Below are positions 5,713 through 44,470 of a stretch of DNA of 64,000 nt, piece by piece. How positions within the stretch are numbered: the first letter of the stretch is position 1; every line of letters starts with the position of its first letter. The stretch is taken from assembly GCF_003056725.1 (NCBI RefSeq), contig NZ_QBKZ01000025.1, positions 88,613-152,612 of the forward strand, given 5' to 3'. Under the pieces are notes generated by a model, which was given only the letters and a program-made list of their open reading frames with translations, ran no database searches and was not told the origin of the DNA. Position numbers and translations under genes: made by a program. The DNA comes from Mangrovicoccus ximenensis. GTDB lineage: Bacteria > Pseudomonadota > Alphaproteobacteria > Rhodobacterales > Rhodobacteraceae.

Positions 5713-6682
5713 GGGAGGCGCTCCTGATGCTTTTCTGCTGGGCAGCTAGCATTCCCGGAGCCATCCGTAAATGGCCCAGTTCCCCCGGTTCGGCGCCGGA
5801 ACAACAGGGCAGCGAGGGGTACCCCGCGGCCGCTCCGGTCACGTCGGGGCCGTGCCTCTCCGGAAGCGTCCCGGGATCGCCGCCCGTCCGGTGCGGCCCC
5901 GAGATGCACTGGCCCGCCATGCCATCCGCCTCGCTCCGCCGCAGGGAAAGCCCCATGCATGATTGGCTTGCGGAGACGTGCGGCACTCGCCGCCGACAGT
6001 ACCGCGAGGCCCTTCCCGCGTTGGACACGGCGACGGATGCCAGCCCGGCCACGGGGTGCGCTCCAACCGCGCCCCGGTCCTGGCCGCACGTCTCGTCCAG
6101 ATCCCTGGGGGAGGGACAGATCGGCACCGCATCCGGCGACAGGACATTCAGCGCCCGGCGCCGCCAGTCACCGCTCCTGCCCCGCCGCGCCCGGTAGCGT
6201 CAGCGGTGCCCGGACCGATGGCGCATCCGCTGGCAATTTCCCCCGATCCGATGGCCGACAATGCCTGCCCGGGAATGGCGTCCTCCCGGAAACTTTGCAC
6301 CGCGGCCGAACGAGCCGAAAGCAGCCGTCGGCGAGCGCATCGCCTCGAAGGACCCCGATCGTCGGCCCGCCAAGTTCCGGAGCCGCCTCTTTCGCGGCCG
6401 CACCGGGAGCGGTGGCGCCGCGATGGATGACCGCATGCCGCCCAGCCTTGAACCGCCTGCCGGTCTTCGAAACCGCCGGGATCGAAGGCGAGGCCTGACA
6501 TTTCGCAAAGGAAAGAAGCATCGCGTCTTGGCATCGGCTTCTGAAAAGCACCACCCCAAGCCGACACGCCGGAAGGCCCCATGCTGCGATGGCGACCGTA
6601 TTCGGCGGGACGGCAATCCGGACCTCCGGGACCGTGATGAAACAAGCGGCTTCTGGGCAGGAGGCCGCCAAGGTCCTGCCTG
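5713..6682. other. 970-base stretch with no recognisable gene
   Basis: All six frames carry short open frames, but none shows family motifs, a plausible start with a ribosome-binding site, or coding-like composition. The first 50 bases are the ahcY leader. The rest may be a decayed gene or region left by rearrangement; nothing in it could be identified. Confidence 0.5.
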
Positions 6683-29523: not shown

Positions 29524-30340
29524 CCCCGCGGCCCGCCAGCAGCAGGACCCGATCGCCGCCGACCGCGGCAAGCGTGCCGTCCACGTCTCCGGCGTCGATC
29601 CAGTGGGGGATCATCGACGAGGCATTGACGGTCCGCAGCGGCACGCGCCAGCCGCGCTCCGCCGCAACCACGTCGGGATCGTCGAGCGTGCGGTCATTGG
29701 CGGGTCAGGCCTCGAAGCCGAAATCGTTCAGGTCCATCGCCATGCCGCCCGGTCCCGGCATCGACCCGGGCCGCGGCATGTCCGAGGCCTGGCCATGCCC
29801 GGCATCCGATGCTGCATCTTGCCCGGCGCGGCGGCGCCCTCTCCTTGCTGCCTGCCGCCCGGGATCTTGGCCGGCACCTCCTCCGGCGTCCCGCAGCTGA
29901 CATCATGCAGGAACATCGTCACCTCCTGGCAGTCGGCGGCGATGCCCTCCGAACGGCGGACGACCAGCGGCGCGATTTGCTGCTGCGGGATGGGGCTGTG
30001 CATCCAGAAGGTGCCCGGCCGCGGCGCGAAGTCGGAACTGCGCGGCTCGCCCGGGCGGAGCATCGGGTTGGCGTTGGGCCTGCCGTCCTGGGCGTTGCGC
30101 GGGTTCCGGCCGTGCCAGCGGATGATGGTCACGGCGTCCAAAGTCTTGGCCAGCTCGACGCGGACGTGCTGGCCAAGACCGGGGACCAGCCCCCGGCCGC
30201 CCGCGCCGTTTTCCAGCCCGAGGACAATGACGGCGCGGCCCTTGACCTTCATGGGCGGGTCGCGGCGGCGAGAGACAGCCTGTCCGCAGCGGCGGGCGGG
30301 CGGCGGCAGGGACGTGGACAGGACGGCCGCTGCGCAAGGG
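29524..30340 (-). pseudogene. Multicopper oxidase (FtsP/CotA-like) relic
   Basis: Recognisable cupredoxin stretches remain on the minus strand. Near 30110 is TIIRWHGRNPRNAQDGRPNA (type 2/3 copper WHG box), followed by APRPGTFWMHSPIPQQQIAP, in which the second HxH is lost (S-P instead of S-H), then CQEVTMFLHDVS. Near 29690 is NDRTLDDPDVVAAERGWRVP, then DVDGTLAAVGG. An in-frame TGA at 29704-29706 splits the second domain, frames shift in between, and the C-terminal copper domain is gone. Clearly dead. Confidence 0.65.
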
Positions 30341-30451
30341 AAGCCGCCGCAGGCATGGCAGATCATGACGATCTCGCGGGGAACGGTGCGGGGCGGTTCC
30401 CCCGCAGGTCAGATCCGGGGCGGCAGGATGGCAGGCGCGATGGCGCACGAG

Positions 30452-30675
30452 ACCATCGGCAGTGGGGGCAGCCGTTCTGCGCGCCCTGCACGGCCTTCCT
30501 CGGCTGGGCCGACCGCTACGAGGCAGGCGACCGTCCGGGGCGCAACCTGAAGGACGACACCGCCTGGGCGCGGGCGCTCGACTGCCCGGTGCTGCTCCTG
30601 GACAGCGCGCGGCCGCCCGGCGAGCTGCTGCAATCCGTTCTCGACAGGCTTGACCAGATCGCGGCGCTCGCCTAG
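30452..30675 (+). pseudogene. C-terminal fragment, unidentified (kinase-like?)
   Basis: An open plus-strand tail of about 70 residues with good coding character (WADRYEAGDRPGRNLKDD, ALDCPVLLLDSARPPGELL) stops at 30675, 35 bases before prmA. It has no start of its own and begins in the region where the multicopper-oxidase relic ends. The pattern vaguely recalls the end of P-loop AAA-type small kinases; this is not secure. Confidence 0.4.
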
Positions 30676-30710
30676 GGCCGGAGCCTGACTCCGAAAGCCC
30701 CGAGGATGCC

Positions 30711-31577
30711 ATGCCCACCTGGACCGCCCTGACCACGCTTGCCGACCGCGACATGGCGGAAGCCCTTGCCGACCGTCTCGAGGATCTCGAGCCCGAGCCC
30801 TATGGCGTCGGCGCCTTCGAAATGGAGGACGGCTCCGGCCTGTGGGAGATCGGCGGCTATTTCACCGAGGAACCCGACGAGGTCGGCCTGGCGCTGCTGG
30901 CGGCATCGCATGGCGCCAAGCCCTTCACCGTCTCCGAACTGCCCGAGACCGACTGGGTCGCCAAGGTGCGGCGCGAGCTCGCGCCGGTCGAGGCCGGCCG
31001 GTTCTGGCTCTATGGCAGCCATGATGCCGACACCGTCCCGGAAGAAAAGGTTTCGCTGCTGATCGAGGCGGCGATGGCCTTCGGCACCGGCCATCACGGC
31101 ACCACCCAGGGCTGCCTCGTGGCCTTCGACCGGCTCCTGAACAACGGGCTGCAGCCCGGGCCGGTGGCCGATGTCGGCTGCGGCACCGCGGTCCTGGCGA
31201 TGGCGGCGGCGAAGGTCTGGGACATCGTTCCGGTGGCCAGCGACATCGATCCGGTCGCCGTCGAGGTGGCCGACGCCAATGCCGCGGCAAACGGGCTCGC
31301 GGGCCGCATCCATGCGGTCGAGGCGACGGGCTTCGGCCATCCCGACCTGGCCGGGCCGTTCCGGCTGATCTTCGCCAACATCCTGAAGGGGCCGCTGATC
31401 GACCTGGCGCCCGACATGGCCAAGGCGGCGGAACCGGGCGGGGCGATCATCCTGTCGGGCCTGCTCAACGACCAGGCCGACGAGGTGAAGGCCGCCTACG
31501 AAGCCGCGGGCTTCGCCCTCGACGACCACCTGGTCATCGGCGACTGGTCGACCCTGACGATGATCCGCGCGGCCTGA
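30711..31577 (+). CDS. prmA: Ribosomal protein L11 methyltransferase
   Basis: A complete PrmA of 288 residues. An N-terminal substrate-recognition domain precedes the Rossmann-fold methyltransferase with AFGTGHHGTTQGCL, the SAM loop VADVGCGTAVLAMAAAK and the catalytic-site motif FANILKGPLIDLAP (NxxL-type). It trimethylates L11 at several amino groups. Its N-terminus (MPTWTALTTLADRDMAEAL) fits the family. A strong bidirectional terminator follows. Confidence 0.96.
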   Translation: MPTWTALTTLADRDMAEALADRLEDLEPEPYGVGAFEMEDGSGLWEIGGYFTEEPDEVGLALLAASHGAKPFTVSELPETDWVAKVRRELAPVEAGRFWLYGSHDADTVPEEKVSLLIEAAMAFGTGHHGTTQGCLVAFDRLLNNGLQPGPVADVGCGTAVLAMAAAKVWDIVPVASDIDPVAVEVADANAAANGLAGRIHAVEATGFGHPDLAGPFRLIFANILKGPLIDLAPDMAKAAEPGGAIILSGLLNDQADEVKAAYEAAGFALDDHLVIGDWSTLTMIRAA

Positions 31578-31632
31578 GGCGCGGACCCGGCCCGGCGCGA
31601 TGCCGGGCCTGTTCCTGCATCCGGACATGGAA

Positions 31633-31665
31633 AAAGCCTGCCGACCTCGCGGTCGGGCAGGCTTT
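31633..31665. terminator. Bidirectional terminator between prmA and the DUF1127 gene
   Basis: Stem AAAGCCTGCCGACC pairs with GGTCGGGCAGGCTTT (one bulged G) around TCGC, flanked by A and T runs on both sides. It fits convergent transcription from prmA and the small DUF1127 gene. A second weaker hairpin (GCCCGGC arms) lies at 31590-31608. Confidence 0.85.
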
Positions 31666-31703
31666 CTCGTTCCGGTCCCTCCCGGCATCGCGCCGGGCGG
31701 CGG

Positions 31704-31907
31704 TCACTTGCGCGGGAATTTCATGTGGCGGATGTCATAGCGGGTGATGCCCAGATCCTGCAGCTCGAAATCGTCGAGGGCGGCGAGCTCGGCGCGGGCG
31801 CGCTCGTTGGCGAACCACTCCTTCACGGCCGCGATCTGATGGCTGATGACTTCGCCGAGGCTGATTTCGTGCTGGTTGCGCAGCATGTTCGGAGTGAGGA
31901 CGGCCAT
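31704..31907 (-). CDS. DUF1127 domain protein
   Basis: A 67-residue protein with the C-terminal DUF1127 signature RARAELAALDDFELQDLGIT followed by RYDIRHMKFPRK. The start at 31907 is supported by AGGAGCC nine bases upstream. Small DUF1127 proteins in this group are arginine-rich and act in RNA turnover or phosphate and carbon metabolism; the specific role here is unknown. The long leader (31908-32220) is relatively AT-rich and probably holds the promoter. Confidence 0.92.
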   Translation of the reverse strand: MAVLTPNMLRNQHEISLGEVISHQIAAVKEWFANERARAELAALDDFELQDLGITRYDIRHMKFPRK

Positions 31908-32224
31908 CTTGCAGGCTCCTTGTCTTGGCAGGGTATCGGGTCGCGGCCAGTGCCGTTCAAGGCGGCAGATAGGCTTGGTGCCGCGCCGCCGCAAGCTCGG
32001 TCTCGGCATGACTGCGTTGCACATTCCGCATGACTGATGAAAGGTGTAAGTGGTTGTAACAAAAAGGTAATAATACTCACGCCTGATGTCGTTTCCGGAC
32101 CTCCGAACGCCGCTTCCGGACCTCGGCGCCAAGCTGGCGCTGCGGAATGGCATTGCCGGATGTTCGCTTTTCGTGCTAGTCCGTTGCAAAACGGCGACAA
32201 CAAGAATTGGCGGGCGGGCAGGCC

Positions 32225-32731
32225 ATGCGCATCATCGGCATCGATCCGGGCCTGCAGAGGCTCGGCTGGGGCGTGATCGAATCTCACGGATCGCGGCTGC
32301 GCCATGTCGGCAACGGCGTGCTGCGCTCGGGCGACGGGCCGCTGGGGCTGCGCCTGGCGCGGCTCTTCGAGGAGCTGACCGAGGTGGTGAAGCGCTTTGC
32401 GCCCGACGGCGCGGCGGTGGAGGCGACCTTCGTCAACAAGGACGCGGCGGGCACGCTGAAGCTCGGACAGGCGCGCGGCGTGGCGATGCTGGTCCCGGCG
32501 CTGGCGGGGCTCGATGTCGGCGAGTATGCTCCGAATGCGGTCAAGAAGGCCGTGGTGGGCGTTGGACATGCGGAGAAACATCAGGTGGAGCACATGATCC
32601 GGCTGCAATTCCCGGGGGTGACCCTGGCCAATGCCGACGCGACCGACGCGCTGGCGATCGCGCTGTGCCACCTGCGGCACAGCCAGGCGAACCACAAGCT
32701 CAACGCGGCGATCCTGAGGGCGAAGGGATGA
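32225..32731 (+). CDS. ruvC: Crossover junction endodeoxyribonuclease RuvC
   Basis: A complete 168-residue RuvC. The four acidic catalytic residues are in place: Asp7 in IIGIDPG, Glu in [11 protein letters not shown], and the Asp pair in [19 protein letters not shown] and the basic [15 protein letters not shown] lie in the DNA-binding face. It resolves Holliday junctions with RuvAB. Its stop overlaps the ruvA start (ATGA), giving the standard ruvC-ruvA order. Confidence 0.97.
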
Positions 32732-33195
32732 TCGGGCGGCTTTCGGGACAGCTGGTCTACCGCGCCACCGACCATGTGATGATCGACGTGCAGGGCGTGG
32801 GCTATCTGGTCTATTGCGCGGAGCGCACGCTGGCCGGGCTGCCCGCGCCGGGGCAGATGGTGTCGCTCTATACCGACATGCTGGTGCGCGAGGACCTGCT
32901 GCAGCTCTTCGGCTTCCGCACGCTGGCGGAGAAGGAATGGTACGGCTGCTGTGCACCGTGCAGGGGGTCGGCGCCAAGGCGGCTCTGGCGATCCTGTCGG
33001 CGCTGGGGCCGGACGGGACCGGGCGGGCGATCACGCTGGGCGATGCCAATGCGATCCGCCAGGCCCAGGGCGTCGGTCCGAAGCTGGCGCAGCGCATCGT
33101 CATGGAGCTGAAGGACAAGGCGGCGAACGTGCTGGCCATGTCGACGCCGATCGCGGCCGCCCCGGCGATGCCGCGCCCGGCGCCGCAGGGGCATC
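32728..33195 (+). pseudogene. ruvA: ruvA, frameshifted and 3'-truncated
   Basis: The first 72 codons are a normal RuvA start ([20 protein letters not shown], then [12 protein letters not shown]). At about 32942 one base is missing (TGGTACGGCTG where TGGTACCGGCTG restores the family sequence), and the HhH region continues one frame over: [20 protein letters not shown], then [20 protein letters not shown]. The C-terminal domain III that contacts RuvB is absent, replaced near 33195 by an IS5-type transposase relic. The chromosome would lack RuvA unless another copy exists. Confidence 0.85.
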
Positions 33196-33484
33196 CGCTG
33201 GCAACTCGCCGGTAACGGTGCCAATCTCCTCGCCCTCGGGGATCTGGTCCAGAAGGTCCGGCAGAACCGGGCTGTCGCCGTCTCGGCTGGAGGTGAATTC
33301 CCCCGCCCGGATGTCACCGGTGGCCGTGTCCATCGTCGGATGGACCTTGCGGTCCTGGCGGCGGCGGCGCGAGCCAGGTCATGTCCTTGTCCAGCCAGAC
33401 GAGCAGAGAACCGCGCCGCTTAAAGGCGGCATAGTAGCATTTCCAGTTGGTCGTTCGGTAGCGGGCGGCTCTTGGTTGCCGTCA
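33196..33484 (-). mobile_element. IS5-family transposase relic
   Basis: On the minus strand near 33480-33370 a transposase N-terminus reads RYRTTNWKCYYAAFKRRGSL then LVWLDKDMTW. Near 33370-33200 a middle part reads KVHPTMDTATGDIRAGEFTS then [20 protein letters not shown]. The segment between the two is deleted and the frame shifts. The DDE catalytic core is incomplete. It abuts the truncated ruvA. Confidence 0.8.
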
Positions 33485-34440
33485 GACGGTTCCGGTGCAT
33501 GTCGCGCAGGTGTTGGCAGGCGATCTTCTCCGAACGGCTTCGGCCCGAAGCTGCTCGCCCTTGGGGGCGGCGAACCACGCGGATGCAGAGCCTGCTCGGT
33601 CATCTCGCGCTGGCATTGGGCGGCCGTCCTGTCCAGGCGCTCGGACGGCGGCTCCTGCTCTGCGTCAGCAAGGATGCCTTCCTGCGCAGCCTGGGGACTC
33701 CCGAACCCCATGAGACGACGGAACCGAGGGTCATCGGGATCGATGACCGGGCCTGCCGGATGCGCCGCATGCGCGCGAAGCTTTCCTGCTGGCAGTGCCG
33801 CGAAGCCTGCCCATGATCCGCAAGGCGGTCGGCGCCCGGACGCGGTCGGGCATCCCTTACGCCCTATGGCAGTCAGGCACTCGCCCCGAAGATCCTGACG
33901 CCCGCGGAAAAATTGCAGCATGAGGGCTTGCCTCGCAGCGCCAGCAGGCCAACCGCGTGCCGCGGGGCTTTCGCCGTGCAACTGGCGCGACGGTCCCCTG
34001 TGCACTCTGCCAGCGGGCCGATCTCGGCATGGCCCGGCCGGCGGATCATGCGACAGATCGGGCGCAGCCGACAGGTCCTCCGCGGCGAGCGCGAGGATGT
34101 CTTCCGCATCCCGGAGAGCAGCCTGGCGCCTTGGCTGCCCAAGCTGGAACGGGACTGGTCCGGCGGTTGCCGGAACGGCGCAGACCTCTGGCACCGCCTG
34201 CCTGCTGACGGCTTCAAGGGCAGGCTGCGTGTTCTGCGACTTTGATCGCTCCCCCAGATCGATCGGCCTGCTTCGCAGACCGTCCTGAACTCGGCGATTA
34301 GGCCACCCGCCCGCGCAGCGCCGAGCAGGCTGCGTTGGCGGGACCAAGCAAATCGCCGCCCGCCCGCAAGATCGCGCGGCTGCTGAAACTGGGCCGGATC
34401 ATCTGAAACGGGAAGAGGCGCTCACACTGAAACGCATCGC
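33470..34440 (+). mobile_element. ISL3-family transposase relic
   Basis: Plus-strand fragments resemble ISL3 transposases: AIFSERLRPEAARPWGRRTT, HLALALGGRPVQALGRRLLL, RVIGIDDRACR (a degraded IDDWAWR box) at 33472-33790, then LERDWSGGCRNGADLWHRLP at about 34140-34210 and ARKIARLLKLGR with LKREEALTLKRIA at about 34350-34440. Deletions and frameshifts separate them. No terminal inverted repeats were recognised. Confidence 0.65.
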
Positions 34441-34982
34441 GTGAGAATCCCGCCAAAGCCACAGGAGCACCCAGACAGCGCGCGTTGCCTTGACGCTTGT
34501 GCAGGAGACTTGTGCTGCAAAGCTTAGAATTGCGCATCTCAGAAAGGGGCTTCACGTCAGTCTCGCCTGAACGGCATCAATCACGATGGAACAGCTGTCG
34601 CACAGTCAAAGCATTGTCCCGGAACAGGATTCCTCGTCAGCATGGAGGAGCCGGAATGGGCGAACATCCCAGGCGCTCGTCCGGCGCAACGAGAACACGA
34701 AGTAGGCACTGTCGGATGCCTTCCGTAGCGCGCGCTCCGGAGCGGCGCTGTTGAAGGTCGCTGTGCGCGGCGAAGAAGCTCGGCATCATGCAACACTCGG
34801 TTGCTGGAAGAATGAAGGAGACCTTCCAAAGCAACGGGAAGCCAATCTCCCCTGCCCTTCCGGAACGCCGCGTCCAGTCGTCAGGAAAAGCCTCCGGCAT
34901 CCGGGTCTTGCGGCAGGCTTGATGGCCGCATGCACACTTCAGGAGCATAGGCGGCAGACCGCAAGAACCTCGGAACCGGCAC
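34441..34982. other. 540 bases without a recognisable gene
   Basis: Lies between the ISL3 relic and parB. Short open stretches carry no family motifs. Composition is slightly less GC-rich than the flanks. Possibly further IS debris. Confidence 0.4.
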
Positions 34983-35026
34983 GCGGTCATCGGTCCCGTT
35001 CCGGCCGGAACGGGACCGATGACCGC
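34983..35026. promoter_or_regulatory. 44-base perfect palindrome downstream of parB (candidate parS)
   Basis: Bases 34983-35004 and 35005-35026 are exact reverse complements, with GTTCCGGCCGGAAC at the centre (34998-35011). It sits two bases from the parB stop. The same 14-base core recurs at 37618 and 40158, so it is not just a terminator. The core resembles the GTT...AAC palindromes bound by plasmid ParB proteins. It can also fold into a long hairpin that ends the parAB transcript. Confidence 0.65.
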
Positions 35027-35028
35027 AT

Positions 35029-36024
35029 TCAGAGCCGCTCGATCGACCGCATCAGCTTGGCGAGACGCTCGTCATCGAGATCGGCGCTTTCCAATGTCAG
35101 AACCCGCGTGCCGTCCGGCTTCTGCTTCAGCTTCACCTGGCCGATCCCCAGTTCCCTCTTCCGGAACGGCAGTGCCGTCGCAGCCTTCTCGCGACGCGCA
35201 CGCGACCTCACAGCCTCCTTCGAGGTCGACGGCCCCTGATCGCGAAGCTGCTTCAGCGCGGCATCGATCTGGTCCCGGCTTGCGCTCCCGAGATCGAGCA
35301 TTTCGCCAAGAGCGCCGTGGAACTCGACGGCAGCAAGGCCGCGGGACACCGTGGCACGCGGCACGCCGATGATCTCGGCGATCTGCTGCTGGGTAACCCC
35401 TGTCGTTTCCTGCGCGATCAGGCCAATTGAATAGAGCCGCTCGAACATGGTCAGGTCGCGGCGGATCGTGTTCTCGAAATAGCGCTCCTGCAGATCGTCG
35501 AGCCGCGCCCCGTCCGCCTCCGGAAAGGTCAGGAAGCACAGCGGTTCGATGCCCAGCTCGATGCAGGCACGCAGGCGGCGGCGCCCCGACTGCAGGGCAA
35601 AGCGCTGGCCGGACACGTCCCGCGGAAACGCCGGATTCGGCCGCCAGTCGGGTTCGGCCGCCCTCACCCGCAGCGGCGTGCGCAGGCCCCGGCGGCGGAT
35701 GTTTTCCAGCAAGGCGCGGAAGCTGTCCTCGCTCTCGTCATCTTCCGGAGCGGGCGCGATCCGGTCGGAACCGACCTTGTCCTCGATGCTCGTCGCCGGA
35801 ATGCGGATCGGAACGACGCCTTCTAGGATCCCCTCGTACACCGCCTCGTTGGCCAGCGCCGCTTCCTTCTTGGCACTTTCCAGCCGGTCCTGCATGCCGC
35901 GCATTGCCTGGCGCGACCAGTTGCCGGCGGTCGGCTGTTCCTCGGGCGTCACTTCGGGCAGGTCGCGGCCACTGGCCATGCCCCCCAGAATGGCGCTGCC
36001 CGCGCGCCTGCGTCCCACGCTCAT
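35029..36024 (-). CDS. parB: ParB/Spo0J-family plasmid partition protein
   Basis: A 331-residue ParB. After a variable N-terminus (residues 1-95) comes the ParB/Srx domain with NIRRRGLRTPLRVR and SGRRRLRACIELGIEPLCFL (the CTP-binding GxRRxxA region), RYFENTIRRDLTMFERLYSI, then an HTH TQQQIAEIIGVPRATVSRGL. The C-terminal part is a probable dimerisation domain. It binds centromere sites and works with ParA to segregate the replicon. Its start overlaps the parA stop (ATGA), so the pair is translationally coupled. Confidence 0.93.
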   Translation of the reverse strand: MSVGRRRAGSAILGGMASGRDLPEVTPEEQPTAGNWSRQAMRGMQDRLESAKKEAALANEAVYEGILEGVVPIRIPATSIEDKVGSDRIAPAPEDDESEDSFRALLENIRRRGLRTPLRVRAAEPDWRPNPAFPRDVSGQRFALQSGRRRLRACIELGIEPLCFLTFPEADGARLDDLQERYFENTIRRDLTMFERLYSIGLIAQETTGVTQQQIAEIIGVPRATVSRGLAAVEFHGALGEMLDLGSASRDQIDAALKQLRDQGPSTSKEAVRSRARREKAATALPFRKRELGIGQVKLKQKPDGTRVLTLESADLDDERLAKLMRSIERL

Positions 36025-37424
36025 GCTGCATCCTCCTCAAGGCTCGGCTTCGCCTTCTGCGACCATCCTTCGACCTCGCCATCCGGGAACAGCCGCTCCA
36101 GGAATGCCTGCGCGTAGCCCCGCGCCGGCAGGGACGGGATCGCCCGCATGACGATGGCATCGTTGACCGCATTGGCATTGTCGATGAAGGCCTGCAGGGA
36201 AGCTTTACGGGTTTTCGGCGGCTCGTATTCATAGGCCGACTTGAACTCCCGGAAGGCATTCGCCGCGCCTTCGGAATACTGGTAGTAGATCGGTGAAATG
36301 ATGTCGGGATTGCCTGCCATGATCTCGCCGATCGTGCGCAGGTCGGTATCGGAGGAGCGGTTGACGATGGTCGGCAGGATCATCGGCTTGGCATCCTTGA
36401 ACTTCACCGGATTGGTGTCGCCTTCGATGAAGCTGAAATAGTCCCGCAAGCTCGCCAGGTAGATATGCAGCGTCGACAGGTCGAAGCCCTTCATCGTCTG
36501 CGGAATGATCAGCGTGTCCGCGGCGACGATGGTGTTGAGCGTCGCGAGGGTGAGCGACGGCGGCGTGTCGATGATGACGACGTCCAGCGTCTCCTTCAGC
36601 GCTGCCTCGTAGGACTCGTGGCGGAAGCGCCCGTCCGGTCCGGACAGGTCCTTCGCAGTCGTGCGCGGCGGATGCGCGTCGCGCCAGCGGTCCAGAGAGT
36701 CCCGCAGCATCCGGTAGATCTTCTTCTGTTCCGGATCTTCCGTCTGGGTCAGGTAGTACATCGCGATGTCGGCTTCCTGGATCCCGGCTCCGCCCGGAAT
36801 GAGGCGCAGCCCCGGCCAGGGCGTCGGCCGCCAGAACACGTTCAGCCGGTCCGGTGCATGGTGGATCTTCTCGCGCTGCCCGGCCTCGGGCACGCCCATG
36901 AAGTCAGTGTAGACCTCGACGTCGTAGCCCGCGATCGAGGTCGTGTCGTCAACGAAGTAAAGCGAGCAGGTTGCCTGAGGGTCGCCGTCGATCAGCCCGA
37001 CGCGCAAACCGTAATAAAGGGTCAGATACTGGGCCAGATGCGCGCTCGACAGGGATTTCGCTACGCCGCCTTTCTGCGAGCTCAAAACGATTACCGGCAA
37101 ATCTTCTCCGGGCTTGCGCCAGTAGAGCGTCGTGCGGCGGGCCTCGGGGCGGCTGTCGGCGATGGCCCGCAGCTTCATGATGTCATGCACGGAGAGCGTT
37201 CGTTCCCGGCCGCGGATTTCGCCTTCGGGAGCATCCGGGTGCTTCATGAGCGCGTTGACGAAACTGCGGTCGCAGCCGAAGAACTCGGTCACCTCGGCGA
37301 TCGAATAACGCCTGAGCACGCGCAGAGACTGGGTGCGGTGCATCCGGGCCGATGAGGCCGCGCGGGACACGCAATCGATCGCGGCCTCCACGAAGGACGG
37401 GATGTTGTGAAAGGATTTCGCCAT
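36021..37424 (-). CDS. parA: ParA-family plasmid partition ATPase
   Basis: A 467-residue type Ia ParA. The N-terminus carries a MerR-like HTH (RRYSIAEVTEFFGCDRSFVN, residues 39-58) that in relatives autorepresses the par operon. The ATPase has a deviant Walker A KGGVAKS (residues 118-124), GDPQAT (147-152) and DVVIIDTPPSL. The start at 37424 (MAKSFHNIPSF) matches relatives; an ATG at 37565 would add an unlike extension. It moves ParB-bound plasmid on the nucleoid. Confidence 0.94.
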   Translation of the reverse strand: MAKSFHNIPSFVEAAIDCVSRAASSARMHRTQSLRVLRRYSIAEVTEFFGCDRSFVNALMKHPDAPEGEIRGRERTLSVHDIMKLRAIADSRPEARRTTLYWRKPGEDLPVIVLSSQKGGVAKSLSSAHLAQYLTLYYGLRVGLIDGDPQATCSLYFVDDTTSIAGYDVEVYTDFMGVPEAGQREKIHHAPDRLNVFWRPTPWPGLRLIPGGAGIQEADIAMYYLTQTEDPEQKKIYRMLRDSLDRWRDAHPPRTTAKDLSGPDGRFRHESYEAALKETLDVVIIDTPPSLTLATLNTIVAADTLIIPQTMKGFDLSTLHIYLASLRDYFSFIEGDTNPVKFKDAKPMILPTIVNRSSDTDLRTIGEIMAGNPDIISPIYYQYSEGAANAFREFKSAYEYEPPKTRKASLQAFIDNANAVNDAIVMRAIPSLPARGYAQAFLERLFPDGEVEGWSQKAKPSLEEDAA

Positions 37425-37586
37425 GCCTGGACATTCCTGCTCTGCCTCGAGAGCGCCTTTTGCAGCGCTTTTGCCGGAATAATCACATTGCCAGCGGAGG
37501 TGGGCAACATGTTTCCTCGTCTTTGCTTTCGAATATGGGGGGCAGGCGGCAATGCGTTGCAGCAATGCCCAGCCCGGCGGCAGCGA

Positions 37587-38552
37587 TCACGCAGCCTGTC
37601 CCTCCGCAACGGGTCCCGTTCCGGCCGGAACATGACCTTGAACCGACTGCTTGCGCAATTGCTGTTTCGCAATCCAAGCACGGTTGCGGAACCTGCCGAT
37701 GCGTTTCAAGTCCGCGGGACCGGGCATCGCCGCTGCTGCCGGAGCTGCAACGGTATTCACCAGCTGTCGCGGCAGGGGCAGTTTCTTCCAGTGTGGCTGC
37801 CATATGGCATCAAGCGCAGCGATTGCGGCCGCCAAGGCTTCGGCACTGCGCGCATGGGATGCGAGCAGCGCAGCGGTGGCCAGTCGGGCCTCGGGCTCCG
37901 GCGCCAGTCCATGCCTTGCCGAGAAAGCGCCAAGAGCCGCCGTGGCCTGCTGCCTTGCCTGTGCTTCGTCCCACAAGCAGACCTGCATGTTCTCTGCCTC
38001 GGCAATGACATGCTGAAGAAGTCCGGTGCGTGCGGTGCCGTGCCATACTCCGACCGGGTCGGAGTCGCTTGGCCGATGTTGGCGCCATTCGGCTTCGAGT
38101 TCGGGGGACCACTCTTTGACGGTATTGTTTTTATGGATCTTGTTTTTTGGACCCTTCGGGTCCTTGCGTTCAGCATCCCGGACGCTGCGTTCAGCTTTCG
38201 GTTCGGACGGTTTTCCACTGCCCGCGGCCATTGCCGACCAGCGGCTGCACATCTCCTGCCAGCCGCTGACGACGACACGGAGCCGGTAGTTGTAGCCGTT
38301 GCCGTAGGTCTGGCGGATGCAGTCGATCAGCCCATGCTCGCGCAGCTCCGCGACATAGGCGGAGATCGAGGATTTCGAGCGGTTGAGCAGGCGGCCGAGT
38401 TCTTCGTAGGAATGCCAGCTCTCGCCCTTGGCATCGGCGAAACCACAGAAGGCCAGAAGCAGGGTTTTCGCCTGGGGCGAGATGGCGAGCTGCAGCCAGG
38501 CGCGGGGCATGCGTACGAAACCGCCCTCGGCGAGGGACGCGGGAGATGTCAT
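37587..38552 (-). CDS. Winged-helix protein of the replicon, unknown role
   Basis: A 321-residue protein between the initiator and parA. Residues about 10-90 form a winged helix (SPQAKTLLLAFCGFADAKGE, SYEELGRLLNRSKSSISAYV, LIDCIRQTYGNGYNYRLRV), typical of replication or plasmid-control HTH proteins. A lysine-rich linker (KDPKGPKNKIHKNNTVKEW) follows, encoded by unusually AT-rich DNA around 38100-38150. The C-terminal half is alanine-rich and helical. One GTTCCGGCCGGAAC palindrome lies inside its last codons. ATG at 38552 is likelier than 38579. It may regulate or assist initiation; not identified further. Confidence 0.75.
   Translation of the reverse strand: MTSPASLAEGGFVRMPRAWLQLAISPQAKTLLLAFCGFADAKGESWHSYEELGRLLNRSKSSISAYVAELREHGLIDCIRQTYGNGYNYRLRVVVSGWQEMCSRWSAMAAGSGKPSEPKAERSVRDAERKDPKGPKNKIHKNNTVKEWSPELEAEWRQHRPSDSDPVGVWHGTARTGLLQHVIAEAENMQVCLWDEAQARQQATAALGAFSARHGLAPEPEARLATAALLASHARSAEALAAAIAALDAIWQPHWKKLPLPRQLVNTVAAPAAAAMPGPADLKRIGRFRNRAWIAKQQLRKQSVQGHVPAGTGPVAEGQAA
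37618..37631. promoter_or_regulatory. Second copy of the GTTCCGGCCGGAAC palindrome
   Basis: Exact 14-base palindrome, sharing the left flank GGTCCC with the copy at 34998. It is inside the 3' end of the winged-helix gene and about 190 bases upstream of the parA start, so it could serve both as a ParB site and as a par promoter operator. Confidence 0.6.
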
Positions 38553-38663
38553 CGGACAAAGCCTCTCTGTTCGGCTCAAGGCCGTTGCGCGTCGCCCGAT
38601 GCTGGGGTAGGGTCAGGTTGCGAAACTGGACCGTCGACGCAGGTAACTGTCTAGGCGGTGATC

Positions 38664-38697
38664 AAGGCTCCGGGATGTTGGCGCATTCCGGAGCCTT
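38664..38697. terminator. Hairpin downstream of the repA gene
   Basis: AAGGCTCCGG pairs with CCGGAGCCTT across 14 bases, followed by TTTC on the plus strand. It lies 13 bases beyond the initiator stop and before the winged-helix gene, so it may attenuate read-through from repA. Confidence 0.6.
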
Positions 38698-38709
38698 TTC
38701 GTTGGCGCT

Positions 38710-39684
38710 CTACATGCCGTCCTCCATCAGCGCGTCGCGCGCGGCCGATGCAGGCAGCAGGCGGTCGATTTCCGGCAGGGGCAGGGGCCCCTTGCGGACG
38801 CAGACATGGACCTTGTCGAGCCGCACCCGTTGGCGCGGGGCGATCTCGGCAAAGCCGTCTTCGGTTTCGGTTTCCAGCGTCAGGCTGATTGCGCCGGACA
38901 TTTGCGGATTGTCGGCGATCGCGGCCATCGAGGATTTCAACGTCCTCGCCTTGAAGACCTTGAGGTCCGAGGCGATCGGAATGCGGCGGCGCAATTCGTC
39001 GAGCGGGATCCAGACCGGATCGCCGCCATTGCGGATCAGGCGCGCCAGGCAGATCTCGAAGACGCGCCAGGACGAGGGGCGGGAGGCCGTGAGCGTGCGG
39101 AACTCGTCGCGCGGGATCTCGAAGCCTTCCATGCCGAGGATCCAGCGGAACGCGTCCTCGCTCAGCGTGATCTTCAAGCGCAGGACTTTCTGGCCGGCGC
39201 CGCCGGCCTGCACGTCCTGCTCGAAGGCGTCGATCCAGCGGAACTGCCGCTTGCGGCTGACATCGTCGCCGATGGGCATCTCGGTGGTGATCCAGGTCGC
39301 CGCCAGCCGTTCGAGCCGCTCGGTGATGCGGGCATATTCGCTGCCGCCCAGCGTCGGGTCGTAGGAGATCGCCTCCATGATGTCGCGGACGCCGATCTCG
39401 ACATGGCGGCTCGGAGGCGTGCCGGCCCGGATGGCAGTGCCGATCTGCGCGGCGAGGAGGTTGAGCACCTTGCGGTCGGTTGCCGTGGCGATCCGCGTCC
39501 CCGGCACCGAGGAGTGCATCCGCACGGTGTAGTCGCCGACTTGGGTGGTGAAATCCTCTTGGCCGTCCTCCGGGAAGAAGGGCAGTAGCATGGTCTCCAA
39601 GTCGCTGCGCATCGCAGGAACGCAGGAGCCTTGCCCATCCATGGCATCGGGCAATAAGGTATTGTTCAGCCGTTGGCTGGTCAT
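38710..39684 (-). CDS. repA: Plasmid replication initiator RepA (RPA family)
   Basis: A 324-residue initiator. Typical elements of alphaproteobacterial RepA proteins are YTVRMHSSVPGTRIATATDR, RHVEIGVRDIMEAISYDP, ITERLERLAATWITTEMP, FRWIDAFEQDV and SWRVFEICLARLIRNGGDP, giving two winged-helix domains that bind iterons. It should recruit the host helicase to the origin upstream of it (39690-40175), where iteron-like repeats are found. Complete. It defines the 33-44 kb block as a self-replicating element by origin. Confidence 0.9.
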   Translation of the reverse strand: MTSQRLNNTLLPDAMDGQGSCVPAMRSDLETMLLPFFPEDGQEDFTTQVGDYTVRMHSSVPGTRIATATDRKVLNLLAAQIGTAIRAGTPPSRHVEIGVRDIMEAISYDPTLGGSEYARITERLERLAATWITTEMPIGDDVSRKRQFRWIDAFEQDVQAGGAGQKVLRLKITLSEDAFRWILGMEGFEIPRDEFRTLTASRPSSWRVFEICLARLIRNGGDPVWIPLDELRRRIPIASDLKVFKARTLKSSMAAIADNPQMSGAISLTLETETEDGFAEIAPRQRVRLDKVHVCVRKGPLPLPEIDRLLPASAARDALMEDGM

Positions 39685-39945
39685 GGTACTGCTGCCTCGT
39701 CCGATGATCTTCTTTGGATCGTCTCGGTTGTTTCTTGTCTTCTATGCCAGAAAAGACCGCATTTCAGAATGGCTGGGCAATAGGTTTTTTTCCGGCGGAC
39801 GTCGAATATGCGGTCCAGATAGCGGGGCAGGGCGCTTAAGAGAGGTCAGCTTTGGCGCGTAACCTGTTGAGAACCCACAAGTGTTGATGCAGCTGCGGCG
39901 GATGCAGGAAATTTCGCGTCCCGTGGATCGGGTTTGCCGGGCAGA

Positions 39946-40151
39946 GGTTGCAGCCCACGGGCGCCGCGCAACTTCAAAAAGGCGGCGTGGTTGCAGTTCG
40001 CGGGCGCTGTGCAACTTCGGCTCCCGGACGGGATCCGGCTCCGACTCGGGCGCGGTGCAACCAAAGGGTCCGAGTCGCAAGCCCTTGATGCAAAAAGGCT
40101 TCCCGCTGGAGCGGGAAGCCAGGTTGCAGTTCACGGGCGCGGCGCAACTTC
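39946..40151 (+). repeat. Iteron-like 30-base direct repeats
   Basis: Full copies at 39946-39975, 39989-40018 and 40122-40151 share GGTTGCAG, then CGGGCGC, then GCAACTTC with only a few changes in between; a partial copy with CGGGCGC and GTGCAAC is at 40045-40061. The GTTGC and GCAAC ends are inverted within each repeat. The CGGGCGC cores are at 39958, 40001, 40048 and 40134, that is 43, 47 and 86 apart, or about four or eight helical turns. Confidence 0.75.
40097..40120 (-). terminator. Rho-independent terminator of the cydABX operon
   Basis: On the minus strand a perfect 10-bp stem GGCTTCCCGC / GCGGGAAGCC around a 4-base loop is followed by TTTTTG. It is 54 bases past the cydX stop, between two iteron copies, so the cyd transcript runs into the replication origin before stopping. 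Confidence 0.85.
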
Positions 40152-40157
40152 GGCCGT

Positions 40158-40171
40158 GTTCCGGCCGGAAC
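40158..40171. promoter_or_regulatory. Third copy of the GTTCCGGCCGGAAC palindrome
   Basis: Exact 14-base core, six bases from the last iteron and three bases from the cydX stop codon. It completes a set of three that brackets the whole parB-parA-HTH-repA-oriV cluster. Confidence 0.6.
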
Positions 40172-40174
40172 AGC

Positions 40175-40306
40175 TCAGCGCCGGTCAGTCTCCTTGGGAT
40201 GGTCGGCAGACAGCTTCGCATCCTCGCGCAGTTCCAGCCACATCGCGTTCATCACCGCGAAGAGCGCGGCCAGGGGAAGGCCCAGGAGCCAGGCGAAATA
40301 CCACAT
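40175..40306 (-). CDS. cydX: Cytochrome bd oxidase small subunit CydX
   Basis: A 43-residue single-span protein starting MWYFAWLLGLPLAALFAVMN, with the CydX pattern W-YFAW-LG...A and a Trp after the helix (NAMWLE), then a polar cytosolic tail. It starts 12 bases after the cydB stop with GGAGACAAAATC upstream, so it is the third gene of cydABX. CydX stabilises the haem d centre. Confidence 0.9.
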   Translation of the reverse strand: MWYFAWLLGLPLAALFAVMNAMWLELREDAKLSADHPKETDRR

Positions 40307-40318
40307 GATTTTGTCTCC

Positions 40319-41476
40319 TCAGTAGCTGTTCGCGTTTTCGTCCAGGTCGCGCTCGGTCACCTTGCCCCAGAGCACCTTGTAGACCCAGGCCGTGTAGCCG
40401 AGGATCAGCGGCATGAAGATCACCGCCGCCACCAGCATGACGAAGAGCGTCCGCTGCGAGGACGACGCATCCCAGACTGTCAGCGACGAATTGGGATCGA
40501 CCGAAGAGGGCAGGATGAACGGGAACATGGTCAGCCCCACGCTGGCGATCATGCCGAAGATGCCGAGCTTCGAAGCGAGGATGGTGAAGCCCCAGCCGCG
40601 TCGCAGCCCCAACACCGCCAGTCCCATGCCGGCAAAGCCCATCAGCGGCGCGGCAATGATCCAGGGCCGCCCGACATAGGCCGAGAGCCAGGTGCCGCCC
40701 TTGACGACTTCGTTCAGCAGCGGGTTCGACGGTCCGTCATGCGCCACCGCTCCGGCAAACTGGTAGCCGTCGGTCAGCACCAGCAGCCACAGCCCGGCCA
40801 GCGCATAGCCGCCGATTGCCACGAGCCCGGCCGCGGAGCCGATCTTCCGCGCCCGCTCGACGATCGGACCCTCGGATTTCAGCACCAGCCAGCCCGCGCC
40901 ATGCGCCAGCAGCATCGCCACCGACACCGCGCCGCAGACCAGCGCGAAGGGGTTCAGGAGCGCCAGAAGCTTCAGGAAGCCCCAGCCGTCATAGAACGGC
41001 ATCAGCCTGTCATTCAGGTGGAAAGGCACGCCGCGCAGCACGTTGCCGACCGCCACGCCGAAGATCGCCGCGGGAACTGCGCCGCCGGTGAAGAGCGCCC
41101 AGTCCCAGCGTTCCCGCCAGAGCTTGCCGGGCCGCTTCGAACGGTACTTGAAGGCCACGGGCCGCAGGATCAGTGCGGCGAGGATCAGCCACATCGCTAG
41201 GTAGAATCCCGAGAAGCTCACCGCGTAGAGCGGAGGCCAGGCGGCGAAGATCGCGCCGCCGCCGAGGATGAACCACACTTGGTTGCCTTCCCAGACCGGG
41301 CCGACTGTGTTGATCACCAGGCGCCGCTCGGTGTCGGTCTTCGCCACGAACGGGAGGAGCGCGCCCACTCCCATGTCGAAGCCGTCGGTCAGCGCGAAGC
41401 CGATCAGCAACACCCCGAGGAGCACCCACCAGATCACGCGCAGGGTGCCGTAGTCGATCAGTTCAGAGAGGATCAT
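40319..41476 (-). CDS. cydB: Cytochrome bd ubiquinol oxidase subunit II
   Basis: A 385-residue CydB with nine or so membrane helices. Hallmarks are [37 protein letters not shown] (WEGNQVW) and [20 protein letters not shown] (the FP...P.S..P..SLT.WDA motif). It pairs with CydA to reduce O2 at low oxygen tension. It starts 6 bases after the cydA stop, in one operon. Confidence 0.97.
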
Positions 41477-41482
41477 CGCTCG

Positions 41483-43078
41483 TTACTCCGCCGGGGCGGC
41501 CGCAGGGCCGCTGAGCCGCGCCTGGTGGCGCCGCATCCAGGTTTCGGTTTCCTCGACATCCTGCACCGGGCCCTTGCGGATGTATTTCAGCATCAGCGCC
41601 ATCTCGATGACGAAGAGTGTGGAGTAGAAGATGACGAAGCCCGCGATCGTGAACAGCACCTCGCCGACGCCCAGATGGCTGACCGACAGCGCGGTCGGCA
41701 GGATGCCGTCCACCGTCCAGGGCTGGCGCCCGTATTCGGCGACGATCCACCCCATCTCGGCCGCAATCCACGGGGCAGGGATCACCGCTACCGCGCCGTA
41801 GAGCGCCCATCGGGGATAGGTCATGCCCTTGAACGAGCTGCGCACGAAGAAGTAGCCGAGCACGCCGATGAAGGCGAAGCCGAGCGCGACCATGATCCGG
41901 AAGGCCCAGAAGATCGGGAAGACATGCGGGACCGTGTCGTCGGCGGCCTGCAGGATCTGTTCCTCGGTGGCGTTGCGCGGATCGTCCGTGTAGCGCAGCA
42001 GCAGGAAGGCATAGCCCAGATCGCCGGAATGCACTTCGAAGCGGTCCATCATGTCCGGAGTGACATCGCCGCCCGCGCCGCGGATCTCCATCAGCGCGTC
42101 ATAGGCGAGGATGCCGTTGCGGATGCGGCCCCGGGCCTCCTCGACCAATTGCTCGATGCCCGGGATCTCGGTGTCGAGCGACCGGGTGCCGATCAGCCCC
42201 ATGACATAGGGGACATGGACGGCGTAATGCGTTTCGCGCGCTTCGCTGTCGGGGATGCCGAACAGGGTGAAGGAGGCGGGCGCGGGCTCGGTCTCCCACA
42301 TCGCCTCGATCGCGGCGAGCTTCATCTTCTGGTTCAGCCCGGCGTCATAGCCTGACTCGTCGCCCAGCACGACCACCGACAGCGCGGAGGCGAGGCCGAA
42401 GGAGGCGGCGACCGTGATCGAGCGCCGCGCCAGGTCGGCATGGCGGCCCTTCAGCAGGTACCAGGCTGAAACGCCCAGCACGAAGACCGAGGCCGTCACG
42501 TAGCCTGCGGACACGGTATGGACGAATTTCGCCTGCGCGACCGGGTTGAACAGGACATCCGCGAAGCTGTCCATCTCCATCCGCATGGTCATCGGATTGA
42601 AGCTGGCGCCCACGGGGTTCTGCATCCAGCCATTGGCGATCAGGATCCAGAGCGCCGAGAAGTTCGAGCCGATCGCCACCAGCCAGGCGACGACGCAGTG
42701 GGCCACCTTCGACAGCTTGTCCCAGCCGAAGAAGAACAGCCCGACGAAGGTCGCCTCGAGGAAGAAGGCCATCAGGCCCTCGATCGCCAGCGGCGCGCCG
42801 AAGACATCGCCGACATAGTGGCTGTAGTAGCTCCAGTTCATGCCGAACTGGAACTCCATGGTGATGCCGGTGGCGACGCCGAGCACGAAGTTGATCCCGA
42901 ACAGGGACCCCCAGAACTTGGTCATCTGCCGCCAGATCGGCCGGCCCGTCATCACGTAGACGGTCTCCATGATCGCCACGAGGATCGACAGACCCAGCGT
43001 CAGCGGCACGAAGAGGAAGTGATAGAGCGCCGTCATTGCGAACTGCAATCGTGACAACTCTACGATATCGAGGTCCAT
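41483..43078 (-). CDS. cydA: Cytochrome bd ubiquinol oxidase subunit I
   Basis: A 531-residue CydA. Haem ligand His20 lies in MTALYHFLFVPLTLG. Other hallmarks are FWGSLFGINFVLGVATGITM, SAGYVTASVFVLGVSAWYLL preceded by the His of VHTVSAG (b558 ligand), and GWIVAEYGRQPWTVDGILPT. It oxidises quinol and carries haems b558, b595 and d. Just upstream, after the TTTTTCCCTCC leader and an AT-rich Fnr-like TTGATCTAAGTCAA (43153-43166), is the cydC fragment, whose remaining part is in the same orientation. Confidence 0.97.
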   Translation of the reverse strand: MDLDIVELSRLQFAMTALYHFLFVPLTLGLSILVAIMETVYVMTGRPIWRQMTKFWGSLFGINFVLGVATGITMEFQFGMNWSYYSHYVGDVFGAPLAIEGLMAFFLEATFVGLFFFGWDKLSKVAHCVVAWLVAIGSNFSALWILIANGWMQNPVGASFNPMTMRMEMDSFADVLFNPVAQAKFVHTVSAGYVTASVFVLGVSAWYLLKGRHADLARRSITVAASFGLASALSVVVLGDESGYDAGLNQKMKLAAIEAMWETEPAPASFTLFGIPDSEARETHYAVHVPYVMGLIGTRSLDTEIPGIEQLVEEARGRIRNGILAYDALMEIRGAGGDVTPDMMDRFEVHSGDLGYAFLLLRYTDDPRNATEEQILQAADDTVPHVFPIFWAFRIMVALGFAFIGVLGYFFVRSSFKGMTYPRWALYGAVAVIPAPWIAAEMGWIVAEYGRQPWTVDGILPTALSVSHLGVGEVLFTIAGFVIFYSTLFVIEMALMLKYIRKGPVQDVEETETWMRRHQARLSGPAAAPAE

Positions 43079-43152
43079 TTTTCCCTCCTGCTGCGCAAAA
43101 CATGCGCCGAAAATATACGTTCCGGGCTATGCAACGAAGAAGGAAATACCTG

Positions 43153-43166
43153 TTTGATCTAAGTCA
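43153..43166 (-). promoter_or_regulatory. Candidate FNR/Anr box upstream of cydA
   Basis: TTGATCTAAGTCAA matches the FNR consensus TTGAT-N4-ATCAA except for one base (GTCAA). It is about 75-90 bases upstream of the cydA start, a normal activator distance for an oxygen-limited bd oxidase. It also lies right after the cydC stop. Confidence 0.7.
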
Positions 43167-43189
43167 AAGGTAAGTGGTTCGTGACGAGG

Positions 43190-43452
43190 TCAAAGCGAAA
43201 AAATTCTGTCCGCCCAAATGCGTTCGGCCTCGCGATGGACCGCGCAGAGGATTGCCGCCTCCGGAAGCGCGGCCCGGAGGCCCGAAAGGACATGTTCTGC
43301 GGTAGCACGGTCGAGCCCTTCGGTCGGTTCGTCGAGCAGCAGCACCGCCGGCCGGCGCAATAGCGCGCGCGCCAGCGCCAGACGCCGCGACTCGCCGCCG
43401 GAAAGTCCCGAGCCGCCTTCGCCCAGGCGGGCATCGAGCCCGCCGGTCGGCG
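43190..43452 (-). pseudogene. cydC: cydC/cydD ABC exporter, 3' remnant
   Basis: About 87 residues of the nucleotide-binding domain of the CydDC thiol exporter: [20 protein letters not shown] (ABC signature), then [20 protein letters not shown] (Walker B), the H-loop Ala-Val-His, and a RIFSL-type end at 43190. The membrane domain and Walker A are missing; homology ends near 43452 against IS debris. CydDC is needed to assemble bd oxidase, so the adjacent cydABX may not mature unless cydDC exists elsewhere. Confidence 0.85.
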
Positions 43453-44470
43453 ATCTTACACCTCTCCTCGGGACACGATCCCAGGCCTGCCCAATGCCGG
43501 GAAGAACAGCCGTCCTGTGTGGTCTCGGCCTACACTGCCAGCGCCAGCGTTCACCCCAATCAGGTCACGGCCAAAGCGAAATGGCGCCTCTTCGTCGGCC
43601 AAGGGCGCTGTTGGACAAATCAGCTGGCGGCCGCGGTCCGCGTTTTCCGGACACACCTATCCCGCCCCCGTCCTCGGGGGGCCGTGGGCCATGTAGCGGT
43701 TCCGGACCGCCACCCGGATCCGGACCTCGGCAACCTGGCGGCAGACGTCGCGGAACATCAGCCGCTGGCCAAGGAGCTTCACGCAGGTCCTCCGGATCCT
43801 TTCCTGTTCCCGCGCATGTCCGTCCCCCGCTGCGGCGGTTCTCCCCGTTCCAGTTCCGCCACAGCGCCCGGCCCGAGTACGTCGATATCCGCAGGATCGC
43901 GTTGCGCGCTCTCCTGCCATGTCCGGCTTCCAAGGCCTGGCGTGTCCGGCCGAGCGGAAGCGGGGAGAACACGCAAAAGGTCCGGAGGACCTTTTGCCCG
44001 GCGAACCGCGGCGGCTCAGCGGCACAGACGGCGTCATGCCAGGCGCGCGGGCCGCAGGCGGTGCCCGGAGTTGCCCATCGCGGCGCCTTCGGTCCGAGCC
44101 CGATAGGCGACCGCGCATCCGTGCAACTCAGCGGTGACGGCGGCGATCTCCCTGTCCGCCGGGATCTGGGCGAGCAGGTCCGGCGGCCTCCCTCGCCAGT
44201 TCGCTCGGACAGGTGGCATGCAACGGCCCGCTAGCTAAGCCAGTTGGCGGCCGTGCATGCGGTCTTCGCCGGTGTGCTCTTGGCCGCCGGCCATCCTTCC
44301 GGAGCCGCCCCGTGCCTCCCCAGCCGCATTTGCGCAGAAAGGACCTGCCATTGCGCCAAACGACGGGCATGGACTCCAGCATCATCGAATTGGCGTAACC
44401 GCCGCGCGCAATCTTCCCCAAAGCGCCGGTTGAAATTTTCGTTGGTTGCCGTTCTTAGTGCACGTTGCTT
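43453..44470 (-). mobile_element. IS5-family transposase relic(s)
   Basis: Minus-strand pieces in several frames resemble an IS5-type transposase. PPDLLAQIPADREIAAVTAE lies near 44190-44130, ARPWKPDMAGERA near 43940, RALWRNWNG near 43870 and CVKLLGQRLMFRDVCRQVAE with VRIRVAVRNRYMAHG near 43790-43690. A further minus-strand patch at 44230-44420 is probably more IS debris. Frameshifts and gaps make it inactive. It borders the cydC remnant, mirroring the IS5 relic on the other side of the replicon at 33.2 kb. Confidence 0.7.

Follow-up and report, generated by a model that had tools for sequence, protein, structure and literature searches.

A recurrent 14-bp palindrome as probable parS site of a ParABS system on an RPA-type replicon of Mangrovicoccus ximenensis

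Introduction

Among the partition systems closest to the one treated here are those of the repABC plasmids. In Rhodobacteraceae that carry them, palindromes of 14 nt are RepB sites that mark the compatibility groups (PMC5613091), and the palindromes of different groups can be distinguished by as little as one exchanged base (PMC5613091; PMC9426580). The half-sites ATCCGCG and TTGCACG have been assigned to RepABC-9a and RepABC-9b (PMC3910554), and the 191-kb plasmid of D. shibae was typed as RepABC-9 (PMC9426580). The parS sites of repABC plasmids are sometimes found inside genes or tens of kb away (PMC9040568). We have analysed a stretch of 64,000 nt from the alphaproteobacterium M. ximenensis (assembly GCF_003056725.1, contig NZ_QBKZ01000025.1, positions 88,613 to 152,612; "the window") in which the 14-bp palindrome GTTCCGGCCGGAAC recurs around a parAB locus. 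An earlier note on this DNA had seen in the copies a strong candidate set of ParB-binding sites that brackets a complete plasmid replicon. Their recurrence and placement, their conservation and the way they covary with the recognition helix of ParB make it very probable that these palindromes are parS sites, serving as the centromere of a ParABS system of an RPA-type replicon.

ParABS systems with clade-specific palindromes are already known, and Petersen et al. 2009 is reportedly the work cited for such palindromes; what is new is this core and this gene set, with its unusual pair of replication genes. Relatives of the repABC type (pDSHI01) have a ParA and a ParB homologous to those of the window, a perfect palindrome before parA, often another one in parB, and clade-specific cores. 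Their parS consensus, GTTNNCNGCNGNNAAC, is, like the sites of the window, a GTT...AAC palindrome near the partition operon (PMC9040568). The resemblance to GTT...AAC centromere palindromes that had been claimed is real for this frame, but does not extend to the repABC consensus, which has 16 bp and a GC centre, whereas the window frame has 14 bp and inner bases that do not fit. No near-palindrome of the form GTT-N10-AAC or of the GTTNNCNGCNGNNAAC type was found at positions 30001-44000 of the window and parB has no visible repC as its neighbour (for RepC, the search in both the window's genome and the sister genome introduced below was confined to this neighbourhood), and membership of repABC was rejected on these grounds. 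The window differs further in its core, GTTCCGG/CCGGAAC, and in having an RPA-type rep and a winged-helix gene as replication genes. Six open frames in its left flank gave no Pfam match, and in the sister parB is followed by the genes of an FAD-binding enzyme and an AraC-type regulator.

With the chromosomal ParB-parS (parS GTTTCACGTGAAAC) and Noc systems the locus shares the 14-bp GTT-N8-AAC frame, an arginine at the position of R173 and the ParB fold, but the inner eight bases differ, and the window ParB is 15-25% identical to solved ParB-family chains among the 23 best fold matches. A third group of plasmids (class II below; pD4M1F and Sulfitobacter sp. S190 unnamed3) resembles the window in having the same three genes in the same order (winged-helix gene, parA, parB) and a palindrome before parA, with ATATCCG/CGGATAT sites; unlike the window, pD4M1F, S190 unnamed3 and two further plasmids gave no RPA gene (none in the four searched, L191, L192, L194 and L195). 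Types of Rhodobacterales plasmids have been described, and in the passages covered none has a winged-helix O-like gene (PMC9025767); nor was a family of winged-helix gene plus RepAB-like parAB met in the literature passages on Rhodobacterales plasmids. Four of the palindromes, searched for as exact text, turned up in no paper, which is no proof of their being unpublished.

Results and Discussion

The palindromes at the par locus

An exact search of the window bore out the three reported copies of the 14-mer (sites 1 to 3, Table 1), and also that the one beyond parB is the heart of a perfect 44-bp palindrome. The other two placements fared differently: copy 2, said to lie between genes, is inside the 3' end of the winged-helix gene, and copy 3 lies beside the probable origin, where it starts 3 nt after the nearest iteron-like repeat and ends 3 nt past the cydX stop. 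Allowing up to three mismatches gives 21 matches in the window; 100 shuffles averaged 7.4 and never exceeded 16. Among its 17 perfect palindromes of at least 14 bp, only the 12-bp core of GTTCCGGCCGGAAC is present three times, and the sole other core present more than once (twice) is the low-complexity GGCGCGCGCGCC.

A parS site is expected to be a short perfect palindrome with more than one copy at the parAB locus, rare genome-wide and present only alongside its cognate parAB, and this is what was found. In the whole assembly (34 contigs, 5.97 Mb) there are four copies of GTTCCGGCCGGAAC, three of them at the par locus and the fourth at C1:324684; the same pattern read backwards, as a control, gave no match. 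A scan of genome contigs revealed a sister replicon on scaffold 18 of Poseidonocella sp. HB161398, and this 8.1-Mb genome also has four copies: two par sites, a third on the same scaffold (C90:53141, 25.6 kb from the par locus) and one on another contig. Of four genomes of the genus, in which a genus search would place the window and its sister together, two have a parA of the window type (100% and 98% identity) and four copies each; the other two (4.4 and 7.2 Mb), where the best ParA matches were of 37% and 35% over part of the protein, have none. The suggestion that the core is specific to this replicon holds to this extent, that among the four it occurs in the same two that have this parA. 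A wide scatter of copies away from par loci, named beforehand as the pattern that would refute the idea, was seen neither in the window's genome nor in that of the sister.

The ParB of the sister is 93% identical to that of the window, and the DNA of the two is 84.5% identical over 7.07 kb of the fetched locus, beginning at 34987, the edge of the palindrome. With longer contigs the shared block amounts to 8.5 kb (C18 123599-132057), and C18 shares five more blocks of 0.5-6.3 kb with the sister at other places (212573-218836 is the largest). Copies 1 and 2 are at equivalent places in the sister, each as a perfect 28-bp palindrome, CGGTCCCGTTCCGGCCGGAACGGGACCG. At site 1 the two replicons agree over the whole of this motif, with 82% identity in the flank towards parB and 42% in the opposite one; site 2 agrees at 24/28 positions, between flanks of 61% and 57% and within a gene that is 70% identical over its entire length. 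Scored against the sister's motif, copies 1, 2 and 3 reach 28/28, 24/28 and 21/28, the distant copy on the sister scaffold 24/28, and the isolated cores elsewhere 20/28 (contig C1 of the window's genome) and 21/28 (sister genome). By these scores copies 1 and 2 are strong, and copy 3 is indistinguishable from an isolated core; the equal standing of all three was dropped after this comparison and the sister alignment. Judging from the sequences, the firm members of the set would be the copies downstream of parB (site 1) and upstream of parA (site 2), with site 3 weak or accidental. What had been called a strong candidate set of ParB-binding sites is thereby supported for the first two of its members.

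The perfect symmetry of site 1 reaches 8 bp further per side than in the sister (44 bp against 28 bp). The homology between window and sister stops at 34987, at the edge of this palindrome.

Related parAB loci

Our comparison set comprised the window and 75 loci with ParB relatives (17 genome stretches and 58 genome-contig loci), of which one, L102, was dropped for its short ParB and missing ParA. The remaining 75 loci of the 76, with ParA and ParB of at least 280 aa, form 34 ParB clusters at 90% identity. The survey of each took in 1.2 kb on either side of parAB, so that the window enters with sites 1 and 2 only, and expected counts come from 40 first-order Markov samples per locus. Some loci are one replicon fetched twice, and it is the cluster counts, not the locus counts, that allow for duplicates.

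A perfect palindrome of at least 14 bp was found near parAB in 30/34 clusters (12.6 expected) and a repeated perfect 12-mer palindrome in 18/34 (0.28 expected). The palindromes fall into classes, with the core TGAACGCGTTCA in 13 clusters (class III), TATCCGCGGATA in 8 (class II), TGCACGCGTGCA in 4 (class IV), TGAATATATTCA in 3 (class VI), TGAATGCATTCA in 1 (class V) and that of the window, class I, in 1; three loci (L078, L107, L108) have copies one mismatch away from class VI. An exact class core stands before parA in 26/34 clusters, in or after parB in 18/34 and in both places in 14, while in 10 of the 26 it was found upstream of parA and nowhere else in the searched stretch. Between core and parA there are 8 to 746 nt (138-200 nt in about half of the cases), and the arms are long in some copies, not only in the window but also in class III, where they reach up to 40 bp before parA. 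The half-sites across the family are GTTCCGG, ATATCCG, GTATCCG, ATATCTG, ATTACCG, TTGAACG, TTGCACG, TTGAATA and TTGAATG. Trees of ParA and of ParB both group the site classes (the former with 34 of 35 rows, L108 having been left out since its ParA is cut by the contig end).

Some class III loci, of the repABC kind, each contain two perfect palindromes that differ from one another, as in L190 (at 6341 and 9623). The one before parA, which occupies the position common to the family, has TTGAACG half-sites; the other, ATCCGCG/CGCGGAT, lies ~740 nt after parB, and ATCCGCG is the half-site published for RepABC-9a. In pDSHI01, the one class III context covered by annotation, repC follows parAB.

ParB and the first base of the site

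A cognate ParB should have the ParB fold, the GRRR and ENxxR motifs (for CTP binding and spreading) and a helix-turn-helix, and all of these are present. The window ParB matches NCBIfam TIGR00180 (ParB/RepB/Spo0J) at 6e-12, below the curated cut-off, and a profile of 19 relatives matches Caulobacter ParB (6t1f) at 2e-7, aligning through the helix-turn-helix. Its AlphaFold2 model (mean pLDDT 73, pTM 0.50) gave 25 Protein Data Bank (PDB) matches at E <=0.001, every one of them to KorB, Spo0J, Noc, ParB or PadC; the TM-scores are modest (0.20-0.37 by query length), as expected because the placement of domains in the model is uncertain. GRRR (G147-R150) and ENxxR (E184, N185, R188) are invariant in two ParB alignments. 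Because the coordinates taken for one of them contained a stop, alignment A2 was made without L061 and L064 and A3 without L064; A2 was also thinned to 19 rows by choice.

In ParB-parS complexes R173 contacts guanine 1, and in Noc-NBS Q173 recognises adenine 1 (PMC7383237). By our reading of the profile alignment and the sequence, R223 of the window would be the equivalent of Caulobacter R173, and the base expected from this residue is the one found. Among the 75 loci, arginine at this position goes with G as base 1 in 3/3 loci and 9/9 sites (2 clusters), namely the window and its sister, with GTTCCGG, and the distant member L055, with GTATCCG. Glutamine goes with A in 5/5 loci and 9/9 sites (4 clusters), E and N go with T, and of the 109 exact sites in loci without the arginine not one starts with G. 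Five plasmid loci were read afterwards; one of them (L192) is the plasmid of L041 and so no new test, and the rule had been seen before its trial on the remaining four. These four Q-type plasmids all have A as base 1, two of them with new cores (ATATCTG and ATTACCG). The covariation fits ParB as the reader of the site.

Some of these results weigh against taking the palindromes for parS, or limit how far the evidence carries. R223 is one of seven ParB columns that separate the window, the sister and L055 from the 31 other clusters, and nine ParA columns separate these R-type clades too; because both sets track the same clades, the weight of the covariation is limited and clade effects are possible. 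Proline pairs with A or T (4 loci), so that in the column test, run with and without L063, column 223 is not strict for G/A/T when L063 is included. The class cores were named after seeing the data, 16/34 clusters have no exactly repeated palindrome and 4 have no exact class core at all, and L040, the closest relative outside the genus in the set, has no site of any class within two mismatches. Conservation beyond the surroundings, another property expected of parS, was not found at site 3, which agrees with the sister at 13/14 positions between flanks of 81% and 79%, with arms of 21/28. Even site 2 exceeds only its own flanks in conservation and is matched by better conserved stretches nearby, since about a third (0.34) of the 28-nt windows at 37424-38700 reach 24 identical positions. 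Finally, the link between the palindrome and the ruv genes to the left of site 1 is doubtful and not safe.

L040 has an imperfect repeated element with arms like CACGTTT...AAACGTG at 6508, 8852 and 9120, near the start of parA and after parB, and a lysine at the R173 position of its ParB helix. The element is possibly a site of other geometry.

If the palindromes are parS, a ParB dimer would read the two 7-bp half-sites GTTCCGG through its recognition helix (residues ~223-234), with R223 most likely touching the first G. As is known of other ParB proteins, it would then load CTP and spread over the neighbouring DNA, and the ParA ATPase would separate the ParB complexes so that each daughter cell receives a plasmid copy. 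Site 2 may also serve autoregulation of parAB, with ParB and ParA repressing the operon as in the repABC relatives. For plasmid partition outside the repABC type, the locus supplies a parS core that can be put to the test. The natural ParB-site pairs, with half-sites that differ within one protein family, provide a test on plasmids of the specificity rules of chromosomal ParB and Noc, and predict which plasmids of the family should be compatible.

Alternative explanations

The alternative that survives best, although we consider it improbable, is that a different DNA-binding protein encoded at the locus, be it Rep, the winged-helix protein or ParA through its N-terminal region, uses the palindromes as operators, which would then control transcription or replication, not segregation. 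The location of site 2 ahead of parA, the ten clusters with a core in that place only and the proximity of site 3 to the iterons would suit an operator, but the copies in or after parB in 18 clusters and the sister copy 25.6 kb off would not. RepA and RepB are reported to repress repABC operons, where upstream sites regulate transcription (PMC9040568), and ParA columns follow the clades as well; it is nevertheless the ParB contact residue that base 1 follows, also in the two new cores, and 24 clusters (classes III-VI and near VI) have the same site design where tblastn found no winged-helix gene.

A second alternative, in which the 44-bp palindrome terminates transcription of the operon and the remaining copies are without significance, we regard as very unlikely: a perfect inverted repeat starting 2 nt after the parB stop looks right for a terminator, but a scan gave 5 candidates against 5.2 expected, none of them at the palindrome, a weak candidate lies ~180 nt beyond the parB stop, no T run follows the palindrome, and the same core recurs within coding sequence, where the sister has kept it. 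Chance, mobile-element ends or assembly artefacts as the source of the recurrence are hardly credible either, since in spite of a left flank partly matching transposase genes, of sister homology ending at the palindrome edge and of broken genes in the assembly, the sister, assembled separately, shares both sites next to a left flank of its own, the two genus genomes that lack a parA of the window type also lack the 14-mer, and the family repeats the design with other cores.

Gene content and neighbourhood

The features of the locus are collected in Table 1. All genes are directed leftward, in the order cydA, cydB, cydX, iteron-like repeats, RPA-type rep, winged-helix gene, parA, parB and palindrome. 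A PF10134 initiator with iterons upstream is what defines an RPA-type (RepA-type) replicon and both are present here; similar iteron-like repeats are found upstream of rep in the sister and in L040. The gene content fits the description of the locus as a complete plasmid replicon, the completeness itself being a reading of that content. The locus DNA has no close match among plasmid records, the best places covering 5% of the query, and cumulative GC skew gave no origin signal at the locus, its minimum being at 6500 on contig C18 and at 4510 on the sister scaffold. The start of parA at 37424 is a chosen one, in an open frame that extends to 37565; that of the winged-helix gene extends to 38579, and the searches with it were run on 37587-38555.

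Table 1. Sites, genes and repeats of the replicon and its right-hand neighbourhood (window coordinates)
Feature	Position	Strand	Description
Site 1	34983..35026	.	Perfect 44-bp palindrome, core GTTCCGGCCGGAAC at 34998-35011, 2 nt past parB stop; central 28 bp 28/28 in sister
parB	35029..36024	-	331 aa, ParB/RepB type; predicted helices 212-219 and 223-234 (helix-turn-helix); R223 probably equivalent to Caulobacter ParB R173
parA	36021..37424	-	467 aa; long N-terminal region ahead of ATPase domain; AAA_31 9e-18; TIGR03453 RepA 1e-31, below cut-off
Winged-helix gene	37587..38552	-	Like phage O-type and DnaD-type replication proteins; HTH_36 1e-9; PHROGs replication initiation 3e-8, O-like 4e-8
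Site 2	37618..37631	.	Core GTTCCGGCCGGAAC within 3' end of winged-helix gene, ~190 nt upstream of parA
rep	38710..39684	-	RPA-type replication initiator, 324 aa; PF10134 RPA 3.7e-16, above cut-off
Iteron-like repeats	39946-39978, 39989-40021, 40122-40154; 15-nt part at 40047	.	Upstream of rep; probable origin
Site 3	40158..40171	.	Core GTTCCGGCCGGAAC between cydX and iterons; weak candidate
cydX	40175-40306	-	Adjoins origin; also beside sister replicon
cydB	40319-41476	-	Adjoins cydX; also beside sister replicon
cydA	41483-43078	-	Adjoins cydB; also beside sister replicon

The structural model of the winged-helix protein (pLDDT 71.5, pTM 0.42) had no PDB match at E <=0.001, the weak ones including DnaD and a replication initiator amid MarR-type regulators, and its role in replication rests for that reason on the PHROGs and Pfam matches. 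A related gene was found in 8/10 loci of class II and in no locus of classes III-VI. Four complete plasmids (L191, L193, L194 and L195) have the winged-helix gene ahead of parAB, and L192 lacks it. A RepC domain was found in none of the five plasmids L191-L195, and two of them gave weak DnaA-type matches, one right at the cut-off. In the four plasmids that have it, the winged-helix protein may act as initiator.

As a tentative idea, which we hold to be rather less probable than its opposite, the window might hold one branch of a Rhodobacterales replicon family, in which an O/DnaD-like winged-helix replication gene is followed by a RepAB-like parAB with parS codes of its own. The winged-helix protein would be the initiator in the sister branch, class II, with parS inside the initiator gene in some loci, like the ori inside repC; here an RPA-type rep would have been added or kept. 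The ParB-parS pairs would represent a natural series of specificity switches, with base 1 set by the residue at the R173 position.

To the left of site 1 there is DNA partly matching transposase genes, then ruvA (out of frame and cut off), ruvC and prmA. A tblastx comparison of this flank with the other stretches produced a mass of matches between GC-rich DNA, and its result was not used. At 32207-34970 ruvA is broken beside IS5-like remnants, and at C1:1069223-1070464 (L058:7223-8464) the N-terminal part of RuvB runs in frame into a chorismate-binding domain. Because of such broken genes, and of a completeness of 84%, some joins of the assembly are doubtful and may be chimeric or strongly rearranged by insertion sequences; the link between palindrome and cyd genes is safe because the sister has it.

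The assembly contains a second RPA-type replication gene at C8:412446-412946 (L035), with a much stronger match (216 bits), and for this reason another RPA replicon is probably present in it.

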